This document shows positions 36,007 to 59,452 of a DNA stretch of 64,000 nucleotides, piece after piece. Below the pieces are notes generated by a model. That model was not told the DNA's origin. It did no database searches and worked only from the letters and a program-made list of their open reading frames with translations. Made by a program: the position numbers and the translations under genes. Positions within the stretch are counted from its first letter, which is position 1. Every line of letters begins with the position of its first letter. The stretch comes from Bacteroidales bacterium (GTDB lineage: Bacteria > Bacteroidota > Bacteroidia > Bacteroidales > UBA3824): the NCBI GenBank assembly GCA_024413595.1, contig JAKSUC010000011.1:1-64000 (forward strand). Direction: 5' to 3'.

Positions 36007-36978
36007 ATGGCAAGAGTAGTTAATCCGATATATGATACAGTATTTAAATATATAATGCAAGACCCACGTGTAGCAAAAGTCTTGATTGGTAATATTTTGA
36101 ATACAAAAATTGTTGATATTTCAATGAACAATAATGAATATTCTACAACATTACCTAACGGAAAACATATATTTAAATTAGATTTTTCGGCAACAATTCT
36201 TAATAAAGACAATCAAAAACAATTAATACATATTGAAGTTCAAAAAGCCTTAGAAAGTGGTGAAATTATGCGTTTTAGAGAATATCTCGGGGCTTTATAT
36301 ATGGATAATACTAAATGTGATAAAGAAATAATTTCAACTTATAAAGGTAGAACTAAAGAAATAGATCATCCTTATCCAATACATTCAATTTATATTTTAG
36401 GACACGAACTTGGTGATGGATTGAAATATTCGGTAATGAAAGGTGAAAATATATTTTTTGACCAACAAGGAAACGTTATAAACGTTCCAGAAAACAATGA
36501 TTATATCAAAGGTTTAACACACAAAATCACATTTGTGATAGCTCCACTTACTAAAAATAATGTTAAAACACATTTAGATAAGTTATTAACCATTTTTTGT
36601 GAATGTAATCCACAAGATCCAAAACAAGAAATTGAAATCGACGAATATTTTGACGACTCTGAAGATTATAAAATTTTGATAAAAGCACTTCAAAAAGCAT
36701 CTGGTGATAAACAATTGCAAGGTAACTTAAGTTTAGAACAACATGCTTGGAAAAATTTTATTGATTTAGAAAATGAAAATAATGATTTAAAAGAAATTGT
36801 TGGTGAACAAAAAAATCAATTAATTGAACAAAAAAATCAATTAATTGAACAAAAAAATCAATTAATTGAAAAAGATAAAAAAATAGCAAAAAAACTATAT
36901 ACATTAGGAAATAGTCTTGAAGAAATCTCTGAATTTTTATCAATTGATATTCAAAATGTAAAAGAATACTTAAAATAA
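36007..36978 (+). CDS. Rpn-type PD-(D/E)XK nuclease family protein
   Basis: This is the PD-(D/E)XK nuclease family often labelled transposase (PF12784/Rpn type). The start ARVVNPIYDTVFKYIMQDPRVAKVLIGNIL is typical. The nuclease core is FKLDFSATI (Asp) followed by QLIHIEVQKA (Glu-x-Gln), which fits the Rpn active site. After about residue 265 the protein turns into a short coiled coil made of three identical EQKNQLI heptads, and ends in a small helix-turn-helix-like tail (LGNSLEEISEFLSIDIQNVKEYL). No terminal inverted repeats or target duplications surround the gene. It sits between ilvN and the AddA-like helicase as a single-gene unit. In enterobacteria Rpn proteins work in phage defence with an intragenic antitoxin; whether that holds here is unknown. 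Confidence 0.87.
   Translation: MARVVNPIYDTVFKYIMQDPRVAKVLIGNILNTKIVDISMNNNEYSTTLPNGKHIFKLDFSATILNKDNQKQLIHIEVQKALESGEIMRFREYLGALYMDNTKCDKEIISTYKGRTKEIDHPYPIHSIYILGHELGDGLKYSVMKGENIFFDQQGNVINVPENNDYIKGLTHKITFVIAPLTKNNVKTHLDKLLTIFCECNPQDPKQEIEIDEYFDDSEDYKILIKALQKASGDKQLQGNLSLEQHAWKNFIDLENENNDLKEIVGEQKNQLIEQKNQLIEQKNQLIEKDKKIAKKLYTLGNSLEEISEFLSIDIQNVKEYLK
36805..36867 (+). repeat. Three tandem 21-bp copies encoding EQKNQLI
   Basis: The unit GAACAAAAAAATCAATTAAT plus one T is repeated three times without a mismatch inside the Rpn-type gene. Each copy is seven codons, so a change in copy number keeps the frame and alters the coiled-coil length by one heptad. Confidence 0.95.
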
Positions 36979-52883: not shown

Positions 52884-55364
52884 ATGAAAATTAAATTTTA
52901 TGCTTTGTGTGCATTTCTGACGGCATCATGTTTTGCCAATGCACAAGTTGTTATAAATGTGGATGCCTTGCAGAAAGGTCCCGAGATTAGTCCTACTCAT
53001 TACGGTATTTTCTATGAGGATATAAACCATGCTGCCGATGGTGGACTATATGCAGAACTTATTCGCAATCGTTCGTTTGAGGATGATTCCATGTTGCCAG
53101 ATAATAGCGGAAAAATTAGTAATTGGAATGCTGTTGGAAAGGCTAACATTTCTCTAACTCAGAATAATCTTCTTAATAGTGTTCAGCATAATGCACTTGA
53201 CCTAAAGTTGACAGCTTCTGGTGATGGTGTACAAAATGAGGGTTTTTGGGGAATGAATGTGGTTGCTGGTCAGAAATATCAACTCTCGTTTTTTGCCAAA
53301 AGTGACCAAGGTTTCAAGGGTACTCTAAATGCAAAACTTGTATCAATACAGGGAAATGTGTTGGGCAGTGTAGCAATTAATGTGAAAGCGTCTGTAAAAT
53401 GGCAAAAATATACCGCCACCATAACCGCTACGGGAAATGATCCCAAGGCACAATTTGCACTTATCACCGATAAAGCAGGACAACTTCAACTTGATGTGAT
53501 AAGTCTTTTTCCTCCAACGTTTAAAAATCGTCCAAACGGAATGCGTCCTGATTTAGCTCAGATGCTTGCAGATATGAATCCACGTTTTATGCGTTTCCCA
53601 GGTGGTTGTTTTGTAGAAGGACAGAATAGTCCTGACAATGCTTTTCGTTGGAAACGTACAATTGGACCTATTGAAGAACGCGAAGGTCACGCCAATATTA
53701 ATTGGGGATACCGCACTTCTGACGGTATAGGTTTTCATGAGTATTTGCAGTTGAGTGAAGATTTGGGTGCAAAACCGCTTTTTGTGGTAAATGTTGGTAT
53801 TTGGCATGGTGGCTGCGACCCATACGACAAGATTGACAGTTGGATTCAAGAATGTTTAGATGCATTAGAATATGCCAATGGTGACGTATCAACTCCATAC
53901 GGAAAATTAAGAGCCAAGAATGGTCATCCTGAACCTTTTGGACTTGAGTATATCGAGATAGGTAACGAAAACTACAACTTTAATATGGATAATAATTCTG
54001 ATCAATCTGATCATTATCCAGAACGCTATATTCAATTTTACAATGCTATTAAGGCAAAATATCCAAACGTGAAATGTATTGGAGATGTAGAGGCGTGGAG
54101 TACCGACAATCCAACTTGGCGAAATAGCCATCCTGTAGATATGGTTGACGAGCATTATTACAGAAATCCACGTTGGTTTGCCGAACGTTTTAACAAGTAC
54201 GATAGTTATCCACGAAATCAGCACAAAGTTTATGTTGGAGAGTATGCCGTTACAAGTCAGTTTGGAGAAATTGGCAATCTTGATGCAGCACTTGGAGAGG
54301 CTGTATTTATGATGGGCATGGAAAACAATTCAGATGTTGTGGCAATGAACTCTTACGCTCCAATTTTTGTAAACGAAAACGATGCGCGTTGGCGTCCTGA
54401 TATGATACGTTTCAACTCGTATCAAAATATGGGAACTCCTTCGTATTATATTCAGCAACTTTTTTCAAACAATATTGGCACAAGAGTTATTAAAACAGAT
54501 TGTACTTGGAATTTGACTAACCCTCAGCCAAAGGTAGAAGCACCAAAACCTGTTCAAGTAGGTGTGGCTTCATGGAATACAAACGTTCATTATCGCAATC
54601 CACAACTTATTGTTGATGGTAATTTTATTCCGATTGATGATTTCAACAAATGGGAGTCGATTAGTGGTAATTGGACTGTGGAAGATGGTCAGTATGTTCA
54701 ACGTTCTAACAATATGCCTGCACTCAGCGTTTGTCCTCAGCAGATAAATTCTAAAAAGTATTCATATAAGATACAAGCTATGAAAGAATCTGGAAACGAA
54801 GGATTTATTCCAGTTGTAGGATATACCGATAAGCGAAACTACGATTGGTACAACGTTGGAGGATGGAACAACACCTTAAAAAGTGTTGAGCAGACAACTG
54901 AAGGTAGCAAAGGACAAATTGCTAAAGATAAGCGTTTTAGAGTAGAGGATAACCGTTGGTATAATCTTCAAGTAGATGTTGATGGTGATAGCATTTTCTG
55001 TTATATGGAAGGTGAACTTGATTTTGCCTGCAAACGTCAGAAAGGTGGAATGTTAGAGGGCGTATATGCAACTACCACAATCGACGAGGCTCAAAAGATA
55101 ATGTACGTGAAAGTAGTGAATATTGGAGATGGTAGTGCTTCTGGAACTATTAATCTAAAGAATTGTGAGGTTGATAAATCGTCTTCTTCAGCTGTAACCA
55201 TTACAAGACTTGCTTCTGCCAAAAACACCGACGAAAACACACTCGACAATCCAAAGGCAATTTTCCCACAAACAAGCGACATTTCCTCTGACGCGTCAAA
55301 CAATGTTGTTAACTTCAATGTGATTCCTTTCTCTGCAAATATTATCAAAATAAAATTGAAGTAA
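52884..55364 (+). CDS. GH51 alpha-L-arabinofuranosidase
   Basis: A signal peptide (ending FANAQ) leads to ISPTHYGIFYEDINHAADGG, the N-terminal signature of GH51 enzymes with an inserted CBM4/9-like domain (about 75-215, VVAGQKYQLSFFAKSD). The catalytic barrel follows with MRFPGGCFVEG, acid/base Glu362 in EIGNENY and nucleophile Glu453 in VGEYAVTS. A C-terminal segment (about 560-730, NKWESISGNWTVEDG) is an extra beta-sandwich. It removes arabinose side chains from arabinoxylan. At 826 aa it is a multi-domain member. Together with GH43 it complements the GH10 xylanase at 31-33 kb. Confidence 0.93.
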   Translation: MKIKFYALCAFLTASCFANAQVVINVDALQKGPEISPTHYGIFYEDINHAADGGLYAELIRNRSFEDDSMLPDNSGKISNWNAVGKANISLTQNNLLNSVQHNALDLKLTASGDGVQNEGFWGMNVVAGQKYQLSFFAKSDQGFKGTLNAKLVSIQGNVLGSVAINVKASVKWQKYTATITATGNDPKAQFALITDKAGQLQLDVISLFPPTFKNRPNGMRPDLAQMLADMNPRFMRFPGGCFVEGQNSPDNAFRWKRTIGPIEEREGHANINWGYRTSDGIGFHEYLQLSEDLGAKPLFVVNVGIWHGGCDPYDKIDSWIQECLDALEYANGDVSTPYGKLRAKNGHPEPFGLEYIEIGNENYNFNMDNNSDQSDHYPERYIQFYNAIKAKYPNVKCIGDVEAWSTDNPTWRNSHPVDMVDEHYYRNPRWFAERFNKYDSYPRNQHKVYVGEYAVTSQFGEIGNLDAALGEAVFMMGMENNSDVVAMNSYAPIFVNENDARWRPDMIRFNSYQNMGTPSYYIQQLFSNNIGTRVIKTDCTWNLTNPQPKVEAPKPVQVGVASWNTNVHYRNPQLIVDGNFIPIDDFNKWESISGNWTVEDGQYVQRSNNMPALSVCPQQINSKKYSYKIQAMKESGNEGFIPVVGYTDKRNYDWYNVGGWNNTLKSVEQTTEGSKGQIAKDKRFRVEDNRWYNLQVDVDGDSIFCYMEGELDFACKRQKGGMLEGVYATTTIDEAQKIMYVKVVNIGDGSASGTINLKNCEVDKSSSSAVTITRLASAKNTDENTLDNPKAIFPQTSDISSDASNNVVNFNVIPFSANIIKIKLK

Positions 55365-55448: not shown

Positions 55449-55585
55449 TGTCCGAGATAAATTCCAAAAACTTAATACGAAGGCTCTACAAATATCCGTA
55501 GAGTCTTTTTTTTGAATATTTAACGGATTATGTAAATATAAAGTTTATTTTTATCTGCGGGTCGAAAAAATTGTTTTCTCGGACA
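55449..55585. mobile_element. Small element B between TGTCCGAGA and TCTCGGACA
   Basis: A 137-bp unit with perfect inverted 9-bp ends; counting flanks the match is 14 bases with one mismatch (ATTACTGTCCGAGA against ATTAGTGTCCGAGA). It holds a hairpin (arms GGCTCTACAAAT and its partner at 55481-55504) plus T run, which serves as terminator for the GH51 transcript. Bases 55474-55528 recur exactly, inverted, at 1-55. This shows the element exists in more than one copy in the genome. Confidence 0.6.
55481..55511 (+). terminator. Terminator of the GH43-GH51 operon within element B
   Basis: Arms GGCTCTAC and GTAGAGTC around AAATATCC, then eight T. The arms resemble the GGCTTTAC palindromes at 33508 and 59468. 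Confidence 0.8.
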
Positions 55586-56483
55586 CTAATAGTTTATAAT
55601 CTAATTTTTATAGGCAAAAGTTATGTTATATATCATTTTAACTAGACTTTTGATACTCATAAACTATTTTCTAAAAAAATGAATTTTTATTTAATAACTC
55701 ATAAAAATCTCATTAAATCATAAGCATTAATATTAATGTTCAATAAATAATTTTGACATATTTAAAAAAGAATTATTTAGGAGTTCGATTTTGTAACATA
55801 TAATATTAGGTTCAAATTTTAGTGTTAATATTTAAAACCATAAAATACAAGGCTTGTTGTGATATAGATTACACAATGAGCAACAAAGTATAAAGACCCT
55901 ATATTAATAGCAAAGTATATTTTCATATAGCTTTAGGAGTGGATTTTTAATACTTTTATATTAAAATATACAATATTTACTCTTAATACGTATAGAAAAT
56001 ATACTTTTTTTCAAAATATAAACACTATAAACTTGGTTGTTAAAATAAATTGCATAAAAAATAAGTACTCTAAATTCGATGCAATAAATATTAGTGTAAA
56101 GAAAAATAGCTTATATTTAGAAGCAAAGAAAATTTTGACCAACCCTAAGCCATTAGGGTTAGTTGTAAGTTGTATTGCCACAAACCATGAAGCCTCATAC
56201 TTAATCACGCTGAGCTACGCTATATAGCTATAGGTGTTGATTTTTGGAGATAAGTAAATTTATGTAAAATATAATAGCTAGATTTTTAACGTTATAACTC
56301 TTTGGATATAATATCTAGTGGTCTAAATTAATAGTTTAGAGGTTAATAATCTAACCCTAAGAGCTCTATTTTTTGAAAAAATAATTCTTGACATAAGGCT
56401 AACCTCTAAATATATATAATTTGTAACTTATGCAACAAAGTATGAGGTGTTAGGGTTAATCACTTAGTGGTAAAGTGACAAGG
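55586..56483. other. Gene-poor A/T-rich tract with worn repeat copies
   Basis: About 900 bases without a supportable gene. Two spots carry worn copies of the 14-codon repeat described for 56484-57346: one at about 56070-56135 (reading KFDAINISVKKNSLYLEA) and one at about 56368-56415 (EKIILDIRLTSKYI). An inverted pair AACCCTAAGCC / TTAGGGTT occurs near 56140-56162. A short frame at 56033-56227 exists only because of these copies. No RNA gene or promoter is clear. Confidence 0.55.
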
Positions 56484-57346
56484 TATGAGGTTGTATGGTT
56501 TGCCATTCAAACACTTGACATAAGGCTAAATGAGTCATTTTTTTTTGGTGACCAGCTCAATATATAGCTAAAGCAGAAATTTTTTAACGCTCAAACGCTC
56601 AGCATGAGGCTTTAGCAGAAATTTTTTAACGCTCAGACGCGCGGCATAGGGCTAGAGCATAAATATTTTGACGCTCAAACTCTCAGCATAAGGCTAAAGA
56701 ATAAAATTCTTTAAACTGAGAGAAAAAGTGATAAAGTATGAGTTTTCATGGTATATCGGTTAGTGGCTAAGTGATTAAATACGGGAGGTCGTATTTTACC
56801 ACTTAGAAATTAGGCAACAAGAAATTACGCCTAAAGCCTGCCTACAAGCTAAAGAGCGTTAAAAAAAAAAGTCTCAAGCCTACCTCATTTCGGCGGGACA
56901 AAAAAATATTATTTCTCAAGCCTTATGCAGAAAATCCGGGCAAAAAATAAATTCTTCTCTAGCCCTATAACAAGATACTTGGCAACAAAAATTTTCTTCT
57001 TCAGCCTATTGCATAGGTTTATTACTACATAAATGAAGAGGTCGATGCTTGTAGCTGAGCAACTGAACAAAATTGAGAAAAATGATAATGACCCTATTTT
57101 TTTTTGTTTTTTAAGTGTTAAAGACGTAATATTTGATGCAAAGAGTTTAAGCGACGAAATTAAAGCCATAATATTTTACATCAAGAAACTTTGCATCAAA
57201 ATTAAAGGTCTAATATTCGATGCTGAGAATGTTAGCATCCAAAATAAAGGTCTAATATTCGATGCAAAGAGTGTAATCATCCAAAATCGAGCAATAATAC
57301 TTTACACAAAAGTTATTGCACCCAAATTGAAGAACTCAATTTGTGA
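56484..57346. repeat. Field of degenerate 42-bp (14-codon) repeats in both orientations
   Basis: Three blocks share one 42-bp unit. Plus block 56484-56735: six units, clearest at 56568, 56610 and 56652 (each starting CT(A/T)(A/G)AG, containing ACGCTCA and GCAT). Minus block 56819-57028: five units, for example 56945-56986. Plus block 57123-57332 with a partial sixth to 57346: five units. All translate to one pattern, (D/N)-A-(K/Q)-(S/T)-(L/V)-S-I-(R/Q)-x-K-x-x-(I/F)-F. The first two blocks contain stop codons; the third is open. Period is exactly 42 in every block. There are no unique spacers, so it is not a CRISPR array. Confidence 0.8.
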
Positions 57347-57365
57347 TGCAATAACTCAATGTTGA
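57033..57365 (+). CDS. Possible 110-aa protein of 14-residue repeats
   Basis: The only intact frame of the repeat field. After a unique start (MKRSMLVAEQLNKIEKNDND) come five and a half 14-residue units, such as DAENVSIQNKGLIF and DAKSVIIQNRAIIL, with alternating hydrophobic residues that would suit stacked beta-strands or short helices. There is no signal peptide, clear promoter or known family. Similar units in neighbouring blocks have stops and the middle block is on the other strand, so this may be the least decayed piece of a lost gene or a chance open frame in a DNA repeat. Confidence 0.3.
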   Translation: MKRSMLVAEQLNKIEKNDNDPIFFCFLSVKDVIFDAKSLSDEIKAIIFYIKKLCIKIKGLIFDAENVSIQNKGLIFDAKSVIIQNRAIILYTKVIAPKLKNSICDAITQC

Positions 57366-57468
57366 AAAATATTAGCCATTATACTTTACACAAGATTGTT
57401 GTTAATAAAAAAAAAGTAGTTTTTAGGGGTGTGGTCTAGTATAATTGGAAAATTAATAGAAATATGAG

Positions 57469-57659
57469 TTAATATAATTACGAGTTACGAATTACGAGCT
57501 AAGTAATTCAAAATTCAAAAATGAATATGTAGCTGAAAGAATTTGTGTTTTTTTTTAACATTTTTTATAAATATTTCGTATTTTTGAATTGGAAAAGAAA
57601 AAGCTTAATATAATTACAAGTTACGAATTACGAGCTAAGTAAATCAAAATTCAAAAATC
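57469..57659. repeat. 54-bp direct repeat, 137 bases apart
   Basis: 57469-57522 and 57606-57659 match at 52 of 54 positions by hand; both begin TTAATATAATTAC and include GTTACGAATTACGAGCTAAG. The second copy runs into a string of CAAAATTCAAAAAT micro-repeats that ends 20 bases before the beta-helix gene. The -7 box of that gene lies between the copies. Confidence 0.85.
57579..57586 (+). promoter_or_regulatory. Candidate -7 box of the beta-helix gene
   Basis: TATTTTTG matches TAnnTTTG and lies between the two 54-bp repeats, giving a leader of about 115 bases that contains the second copy. Confidence 0.4.
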
Positions 57660-57709
57660 AAAATTCTAAATTCAAAAATCAAAATTCAAAAATTAAAAAA
57701 TATATTTAT

Positions 57710-59452
57710 ATGAAAAAAACATCATTATTATTATCTACATTAGCTGTAATATTATCAGCATGTGGAGGAGGTTCGGGCAATTCAAATAGTGTTCAGAATG
57801 TTCAAGGAGAAGGTGAAACCGAAAGTTTAAAACCTCAAAAAGAAATTCATGTGTCAACTGCAGAAGAGTTTATAAATGCTATTGGCAATGATACTCATAT
57901 TATTCTTGATGATAATATCTTAGATCTTCAAAGTATTGTGGATTTAAAAGTTCAAAATGGTAAGATTTCTAAAGTTGAATATGAAAATGAAGATTATAGA
58001 AAACCTATAAAACAAGATAATGCAGTTGTTGCTTATGGATATGGTTCTTATAGCAATAATCAATTAAACTTTATGTCTTTAAACAATTTTACAATTGATG
58101 GAGGTAAAGATAGATATTGTATTTGTTTAGACTCATACGAAGCAGATGTTCTTTCTTTTGTATTTTGTAAAAACATTACAATCAAGAATATTATTCTTGG
58201 TCACGAACCAACAGCTGGTTGTGCTGGTGGTGTAACTAAATTTTTTGAATGTTCTAATGTAACAATCGAAAACTCTCAATTGTTTGGTTGTGGCGAAATT
58301 GGTATTGATGCTACAAAATGTAACAATTTTACTGTATCTAAATCTGATATTTTTGATTGTTCTTATGCTGGTATCGAAGTAAATGATATTAGTAACTTTG
58401 CCTTTAATAATTGTAATTTTGCTGACTTAGATACAGATGTTCTTAACTTTTGGGAAGATTGTAAAGATGTAGTTTTCAATAATTGTGTGTTTGATGTTGA
58501 AAATTATGAAACAAATAATCCAAATGCAAATAAAATAACCTACAATAATTGTAAAGTAGATACAAGCCTTAATTTCCCTGATTTGTGGTCTGAATTAGTT
58601 GGTGGTTTTGGTTATGATGGTTATTATGAAGGAGAAGAATTTGAGTATTATGGTGATAATCCAGATGAAGGACCAGATCCTGTTGAACTTGAATTTGATG
58701 ATGTTAAAGGTTCTTTTTCAGACAAAGTAATTCATGTTAAAACAGGTCAAGAATTTATCAAAGCTCTTGGAAATAATAGAACAATTATTGTTGATAATGA
58801 TATATTAGATTTTTCATATTGTCTAGGAGATTTAATCGACAATGGCGAAATATCACAAGAATCAGAAGGAAAACCTGCAATTCCTGGTATATATTGCACC
58901 GACAATTTTGATGGTTGGGGTCTTAAACTAAGTCATATTTATAATCTTAAGATAGAAGGTAAAAATAAAGAGACACATATTCAAATAGAACCCAAATATG
59001 CAGATGTTTTATATTTTGAATTTGCTAAAAATATAGAACTTAAAAATCTAAAACTAGGACATAAAGAAAAAGGAGATTGTGAAGGAGCTGTATTACATTT
59101 TAATTCATGTCAAGATATAGAAATAGAAGATTGTAAACTCTATGGATGTGGAGTTCAAGGAATTTTTGCTGCGTATTGTAATAATATTGATGTAGAAGAT
59201 ACTGAAATATATGAATGTAGCGAAACAGGTTTGTATTATAATGTAGTTAAACAGAGTAAATGTAAAAATTGCAAATTCTATCAACTTGCAAATCCTTTGA
59301 TTTTAACTAATAGCTATGTAACATTCAAAAAGTGTAGTTTTGATGTTGAATATTGGAATCCTGATTATACAAACAATGGTTCTAAAGATAATCCAGTTGT
59401 ATTCGATAATTGCGATATTAAATATAAGAATGTGATGGAATACGGAGACTAA
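57710..59452 (+). CDS. Duplicated parallel beta-helix lipoprotein
   Basis: A lipobox LSAC followed by GGGSGNSNS gives a lipoprotein without the acidic surface-export stretch. The mature protein has two homologous halves. Each begins with a short unit (KEIHVSTAEEFINAIGND / KVIHVKTGQEFIKALGNN) and DDNILDL / DNDILDF, followed by a right-handed parallel beta-helix of turns such as NFTIDG, NITIKNIILGHEPTAGC and NVTIENSQLFGCGEIGI. The linker between halves (about 300-335) is rich in G, Y, E and D. The family suggests carbohydrate or surface binding; catalytic residues of lyases or hydrolases are not evident. It is a single-gene unit with a palindromic terminator. Confidence 0.85.
   Translation: MKKTSLLLSTLAVILSACGGGSGNSNSVQNVQGEGETESLKPQKEIHVSTAEEFINAIGNDTHIILDDNILDLQSIVDLKVQNGKISKVEYENEDYRKPIKQDNAVVAYGYGSYSNNQLNFMSLNNFTIDGGKDRYCICLDSYEADVLSFVFCKNITIKNIILGHEPTAGCAGGVTKFFECSNVTIENSQLFGCGEIGIDATKCNNFTVSKSDIFDCSYAGIEVNDISNFAFNNCNFADLDTDVLNFWEDCKDVVFNNCVFDVENYETNNPNANKITYNNCKVDTSLNFPDLWSELVGGFGYDGYYEGEEFEYYGDNPDEGPDPVELEFDDVKGSFSDKVIHVKTGQEFIKALGNNRTIIVDNDILDFSYCLGDLIDNGEISQESEGKPAIPGIYCTDNFDGWGLKLSHIYNLKIEGKNKETHIQIEPKYADVLYFEFAKNIELKNLKLGHKEKGDCEGAVLHFNSCQDIEIEDCKLYGCGVQGIFAAYCNNIDVEDTEIYECSETGLYYNVVKQSKCKNCKFYQLANPLILTNSYVTFKKCSFDVEYWNPDYTNNGSKDNPVVFDNCDIKYKNVMEYGD

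Follow-up and report, generated by a model that had tools for sequence, protein, structure and literature searches.

A degenerate, noncoding array of dyad-symmetric 42-bp units in inverted layout in an intergenic gap of a Bacteroidales genome

Within a window of 64,000 nucleotides, part of a 71-kb contig (C13) of a Bacteroidales genome of 3.9 Mb in 195 contigs, most of one intergenic gap is occupied by a field of about 36 diverged 42-bp units (~55883-57401, ~1.5 kb), which forms one large imperfect inverted repeat of dyad-symmetric units, the left arm on the plus strand and the right arm on the minus strand. The spacing of this field is conserved far better than its sequence. The reading that we prefer, tentatively and with not quite an even chance of being right, is that of an old noncoding DNA array, a minisatellite in helical phase, whose dyad-symmetric units would serve some function at the DNA level. 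Such a function, with 42 bp taken as four turns of the helix, was one of several possibilities raised in a preliminary description made from the letters of this DNA, and it fares best among them, being favoured by the conserved spacing and by the periods of other arrays, although the function itself is something that we infer.

The 2.3-kb gap that holds the field is flanked on one side by a GH43-GH51 arabinan-type gene pair, the GH51 arabinofuranosidase gene ending at 55364, and on the other by a beta-helix lipoprotein gene (57710-59452); DUF2795, TPR and LysM genes also lie around it. Judged by the GH51 gene, the closest relatives are MAGs of horse and ruminant gut, such as Candidatus Minthosoma caballi, for which the best segment reaches 81%. 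The gap is AT-rich, with simple repeats, and a multi-copy MITE lies 300 bp from the field. This MITE-like element (TGTCCGAGA...TCTCGGACA), present in the window at 55449-55585 and 1-87, has an internal terminator-like hairpin and many copies, often contig-terminal. Shortly before the beta-helix gene there are a 60-bp direct duplication (93%, 57469-57664) and an AAATTCA tract (7/14/21-bp, 57641-57701), and elsewhere in the window a perfect 21-bp repeat of 3.2 copies (36804-36870) lies at the end of the ORF 36007-36978.

The strict 42-bp period reported earlier is confirmed by TRF (56567-56714 and 57127-57299) and by autocorrelation, which reaches 0.73, 0.70 and 0.58 in the three blocks then recognized; over the whole field, the lags of 42, 84 and 126 stand at z 7.4, 5.7 and 4.3. 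The repeats of that description are real, but the extent given to them, 16 units at 56484-57346, was too small. A cyclic 42-state Viterbi model traces a single lattice along 55883-56721 (phases 41, 0, 2, 3, 4, 5, 6) and 57401-56800 (phases 41, 40), the phase steps over 1.5 kb being mostly of 1-3 bp, and scores +223 to +258 against -95 to -149 in six control stretches, a contrast that is descriptive, as the model was trained on the field's own units. The extent of the field is drawn from this trace, from scans with two covariance models of the unit (R1 and R2) and from the inverted alignment given below. Moreover, R1 matches 56033-56106 (E 2e-5) and 56241-56312 (E 3e-5), neither unit being in its training set; its best match in the 64-kb window outside the gap has an E of 0.06. 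A position matrix, together with the covariance models, adds single units at 55901 and 56369. Several candidate structures were dropped: a 297-bp higher-order repeat and BLAST self-palindromes in the AT-rich left flank, neither of which exceeded what locally shuffled controls gave, and a CRISPR array, ruled out by units that are diverged along their entire length and are not identical repeats with unique spacers.

The left arm (55883-56765) carries its units on the plus strand, with weak stretches at 55955-56020, 56325-56368 and 56411-56495. It includes block B0 (56030-56323, +, seven units), which was outside the earlier list and is recognized by block comparison and R1 matches, and block B1 (56496-56705, +, five units). 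The right arm (56766-57401, minus strand), recognized by covariance-model scans, block comparison and the lattice trace, includes B2 (56825-57034, -, five units) and B3 (57120-57413, -, seven units), the third block of the earlier account, whose quasi-palindromic units, such as GATGC-N11-GCATC, are readable on the plus strand too. A palindromic centre, CTAAGTGATTAAATAC-gggaggtc-GTATTTTACCACTTAG, is found at 56767-56806 by its sequence and by a local dyad axis scan, which places the top axis at 56765 and further axes at 56786 and 56807.

Aligned with the reverse complement of the right arm, the left arm reaches a local alignment score of 103, against 33.9 +/- 4.7 for locally shuffled sequence (z 14.8) and 49 for the direct comparison. 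Block by block, B1 and reverse-complemented B2 are clearly one DNA repeat, with register 0 ahead of the 41 others (z 8.0), B0 fits B3 better inverted than direct (z 6.1 against 4.3) and B1/B2 better direct than inverted (4.0 against 1.2), and, at a single register, B3 can be matched to B1/B2 in either orientation (z 3.0 and 3.2); in the favoured sense, register 0 comes first of 42 in every block comparison. A sequence of plus, minus and plus blocks had been proposed: B1 on plus and B2 on minus are borne out, but the return of B3 to plus is not demonstrated, this block fitting the minus arm equally well or better and being readable on plus because the unit is dyad-symmetric. The axis of this symmetry, at offset 16 of the unit, is the first of 83 axes, with 42.5% complementary against a mean of 28.2%. 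Along the field the dyad axes keep one phase (mod 42, 18 to 22 on the left and 24-25 on the right), so that the lattice crosses the strand switch with a 2-bp shift. Random block inversion would match such closeness of phase about 1 time in 8, and this continuity, taken alone, is suggestive only. The rearrangement invoked earlier is not needed, given a dyad-symmetric unit and a 2-bp lattice shift at the switch point. Long inverted arms built from tandem subrepeats are a feature of eukaryotic foldback elements, which the architecture of the field recalls, and the nearby multi-copy MITE might be taken as a further hint that the field is the remnant of a foldback-like mobile element. This origin is nevertheless very improbable, since the field has one genomic copy, with no second copy to define ends or a target duplication, no transposase is found among the neighbouring genes, and the sequence of the MITE is unrelated.

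The 42-bp spacing by itself does not separate a codon frame from a helix, and the field had been read as a former repeat protein. The residue pattern F-F/D-x-A-x-x-L-x-I-x is indeed present in the frame named for B1 (56496-56705, +), B2 (57034-56825, -) and B3 (57129-57380, +), and the stops are placed as described, 7 of them falling in the 140 codons of B1 and B2, with B3 open within a 110-codon ORF (57033-57365, +) that we judge not to be a gene. A partly inverted remnant of a gene that encoded a 14-residue repeat protein would explain 42 bp as 14 codons as well as this ORF; furthermore, the proposed frame has the highest residue similarity of the six, albeit a modest one (z 2.5), and similarity at codon positions 1 and 2 exceeds that at position 3 across blocks (p 0.03), but not within them (p 0.19), so that the bias is marginal. 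Against it, codon usage in the proposed frame is anti-genic in B1 and B2, the log-odds being -0.41 and -0.67, and -0.04 in B3, when the genes of the same window average +0.31, with their 5th percentile at +0.085. The stops of B1 and B2 and the 1-bp shifts of the lattice disrupt the frame, the encoded protein has no match in Pfam, NCBIfam or PDB, intact homologues of the 14-residue repeat were found neither there nor in 59 relatives, and no fold is predicted for the 110-aa ORF (AlphaFold pLDDT 43, a weak result as the input was a single sequence). The pattern F-D-A...S-I-K, in turn, corresponds to TTT GAT GC. ....GC ATC AAA, which is a DNA palindrome, and the dyad sequence alone (TTTGATGC-N11-GCATCAAA) yields F-D-A...S-I on both strands, because the reverse complement of the palindrome lands in codon register on the opposite strand. 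A coding past of the field has little to stand on, and a gene relic is improbable; what favours the helix over the frame is the dyad, together with the codon usage and the arrays of 43 and 53 bp described below.

The symmetry of the units could also belong to a structured RNA, in the form of hairpins in tandem or of one long double-stranded transcript, and the folding energies do lie under those of shuffled sequences (z -3.9 for 56440-57060 and z -4.1 for 57080-57420). Nevertheless, the repeats by themselves account for such low energies, as any inverted repeat would, the dyad pairs do not covary (57.5% paired against 56.7% in shuffles, with a covariation score below the shuffle mean), and Rfam has no match near the gathering score, all of which makes an RNA role scarcely credible. 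It is in the consensus that the dyad resides, as would be the case for a protein site or an ancestral palindrome.

The field has the tandem units, within ~10-100 bp, of a noncoding minisatellite, and lies outside any gene, as judged by codon usage, stops and the lack of protein relatives; it also has the traits of a helically phased dyad array, the unit being an integer number of helical turns and the phase being held along the array. Although its units are near 50% identity, 20 of them align gap-free, and adjacent units within B1, B2 and B3 differ by 240 substitutions and 0 indels. Copies of the MITE in the same genome show 644 substitutions and 71 indels, a ratio at which ~26 indels would be expected in the field blocks, bearing in mind that unit pairs are non-independent and that the MITE, a different element, is a proxy only; the shortfall is large all the same. 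Over the whole field, about 10 small phase steps compare with about 60 estimated at the MITE ratio from ~17 differences per unit. Inside the unit, AA/TT dinucleotides show no 10.5-bp rhythm.

The chief rival of the phased array is a neutral minisatellite in which indels are rare for mutational reasons: a functionless, decaying noncoding array, unmaintained now, in which slippage made the copies and template switching in quasi-palindromic units made the inverted arms. Template switching at quasi-palindromes is a described mutation type (PMC3820800, PMC7954356), and the single copy, the lack of a relative in 393 genomes of the order, the low identity of the units and the AT-rich gap alongside a MITE and simple repeats would all suit such an origin, which we regard as distinctly possible though not probable. 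It accords poorly with 0 indels where ~26 were expected, with 0 again in a second field (on contig C174), and with the clustering of the periods of unrelated arrays. The spacing could, in any case, be held by a mutational mechanism and not by selection.

These other arrays come from a sampled survey of the same genome (1.1 Mb). Noncoding 42-43-bp arrays of unrelated sequence were found at C152:1-211 (L251:1-211, five copies, 95%), at C16:1-99, linked to MITEs on C4, C10, C109 and C118, and at C174:30300-31340. The last of them (L254:300-1340, genome G000), which shares the chief traits of the field on C13, is a diverged noncoding 43-bp lattice in an inter-ORF gap, adjoining a 252-aa ORF, with lags of 43, 86, 129 and 172; its 10 units show 176 substitutions and 0 indels, one unit is inverted (26/28 bases) and the left block fits the right block inverted (z 5.6). 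Its whole-arm alignment is not above the AT-rich null, so that the inverted arms are supported only by a phase-locked profile and that one unit. Noncoding 53-bp arrays, again of unrelated sequences, occur on C119 (L306:9602-9855), C108 (L303:18666-18869) and C24 (L299:15055-15178), and 33-bp noncoding arrays are also present. A general rule that arrays of 42-53 bp contain dyads was rejected, the dyads being significant only in C108 and C24 and borderline in C16 and in block B3 of the field.

The periods of the noncoding arrays of at least 26 bp in this genome are 28, 30, 32, 32, 33 (five times), 42 (four times), 43 and 53 (three times), values close to three, four and five turns of the helix. 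With each family counted once, they lock in phase to 10.5 bp, with R 0.80, p 2e-5 and an offset of 0.5 bp, and those of coding arrays do not (R 0.18, p 0.55). This clustering was noticed post hoc, and its p value is 0.056 with distinct periods only; a genus sample, mostly of 21-bp arrays, agrees (p 0.001), and a small independent sample of other genomes gives p 0.09-0.10 with n=5 arrays.

Other features were recorded in the course of the survey. The array on C16 (L292:1-99), of the form CATTGCA-N11-TGCAATG, lies upstream of a gene resembling those of cytosine methyltransferases and of another that is probably a restriction gene. The 41-42-bp arrays at L077:4172-4297, L079:3878-4120, L081:3905-4078 and the end of L218 consist of TATTCCCC..GGGGAA hairpins with T-runs and adjoin MITE ends, at contig ends. 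A CRISPR-like array with a repeat of about GTTTCAATTCCAAAAGGTTCAATTAAAAG and a period of 63-66 is found at L255:17747-19272 (C57), and two small genes lie in tandem at L319:18500-18900 (C35), one of which reads MKKITIEQMQFVDGG..., resembling the double-glycine leader peptides of bacteriocin-type precursors.

If the field is a phased array, its 42 bp, or 4 x 10.5, would amount to four helical turns and every unit would show the same face of the helix, the lattice being kept by something that reads phased spacing and not exact letters. The reader may be a DNA-bending or bridging protein that binds the dyads, or the array may fold in a torsion-dependent manner; a dyad-binding architectural protein would be the simplest candidate, which we infer in its entirety. 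Slippage in phase, or unequal exchange, might have enlarged the array, and its arms may be inverted since a unit that resembles its own reverse complement allows copying in both senses. Against the phased array speak the lack of an AA/TT rhythm inside the unit and the fact that no binding protein, conserved operator core or homologous array elsewhere is known.

The earlier statement that the unit belongs to no described family holds across everything searched. BLAST and profile searches found no second copy of the field in its own genome or in the genus, only short chance matches, and an 80% BLAST match on C79 lies within a gene resembling ribosomal protein L17. No convincing homologous array was found among the 393 genomes of the order, R1 matches in four other genomes (no surrounding 42-bp period) and a tblastn match in G027 (E 0.004, no tandem repeats there) being judged chance. 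Phages, plasmids and viral contigs gave no homologous array, nor did the 42 loci scanned with R1 among 80 related GH51 neighbourhoods; in the genus there is no close GH51 orthologue and no orthologous gap. Noncoding 22-bp tandem arrays of differing sequences are common in Bacteroidales/Prevotellaceae loci (L147:5710-5814, L149:5737-5819, L165:5687-5774 and others), some of them immediately upstream of the GH51 gene. Another Bacteroidaceae MAG has a GC-rich 42-bp array (CGAAAACGACCATTTTCACC..., L144:1546-1797), and a congener has a noncoding 77-bp array of ~30 copies (L273:1-2283, G016 C65).

It is conceivable, although on balance doubtful, that the genomes of this group of Bacteroidales have long intergenic fields forming a class of their own, of unrelated sequences and with units of three, four or five turns, which conserve solely the helical phasing of degenerate dyads and act as sequence-tolerant platforms for a nucleoid or segregation protein. 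If the spacing is selected, the function would lie in geometry and not in letters, and such fields would be invisible to homology searches and annotated as empty intergenic DNA; their signature, many substitutions, no indels and a period in multiples of 10.5 bp, is one for which any genome can be searched. Even a neutral field would be a clean case of DNA dyad symmetry mimicking a coding repeat with a strand switch.

Among known systems, bacterial minisatellites or VNTRs (e.g. of the MIRU type) also have noncoding units of tens of bp that stand in tandem between genes, but the field is a much longer, decayed lattice with a dyad-symmetric unit, inverted arms and a spacing that has outlasted the sequence. 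Iteron arrays and partition (centromere) sites resemble it in having repeated sites in helical phase; their units are of ~20 bp, well conserved and beside a Rep or Par gene, whereas those of the field are of 42 bp and diverged, and no Rep or Par gene is among its neighbours. REP and BIME elements are likewise palindromic, in intergenic arrays of changing orientation, but REPs share a conserved core and occur as many dispersed copies, and the palindrome of the field is restricted to one locus and not dispersed in the genome. The 41-42-bp TATTCCCC...GGGGAA arrays beside MITEs in the same genome share the period and the noncoding nature; they are unrelated in sequence, with young copies and 41/42-bp length changes. 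Eukaryotic foldback elements (FB/Galileo) have comparable long inverted arms of tandem subrepeats, and differ from the field, for which neither mobility nor ends nor a second copy were seen. The field is new as a variant of noncoding repeat arrays, and the possible helically phased class is the part worth following.
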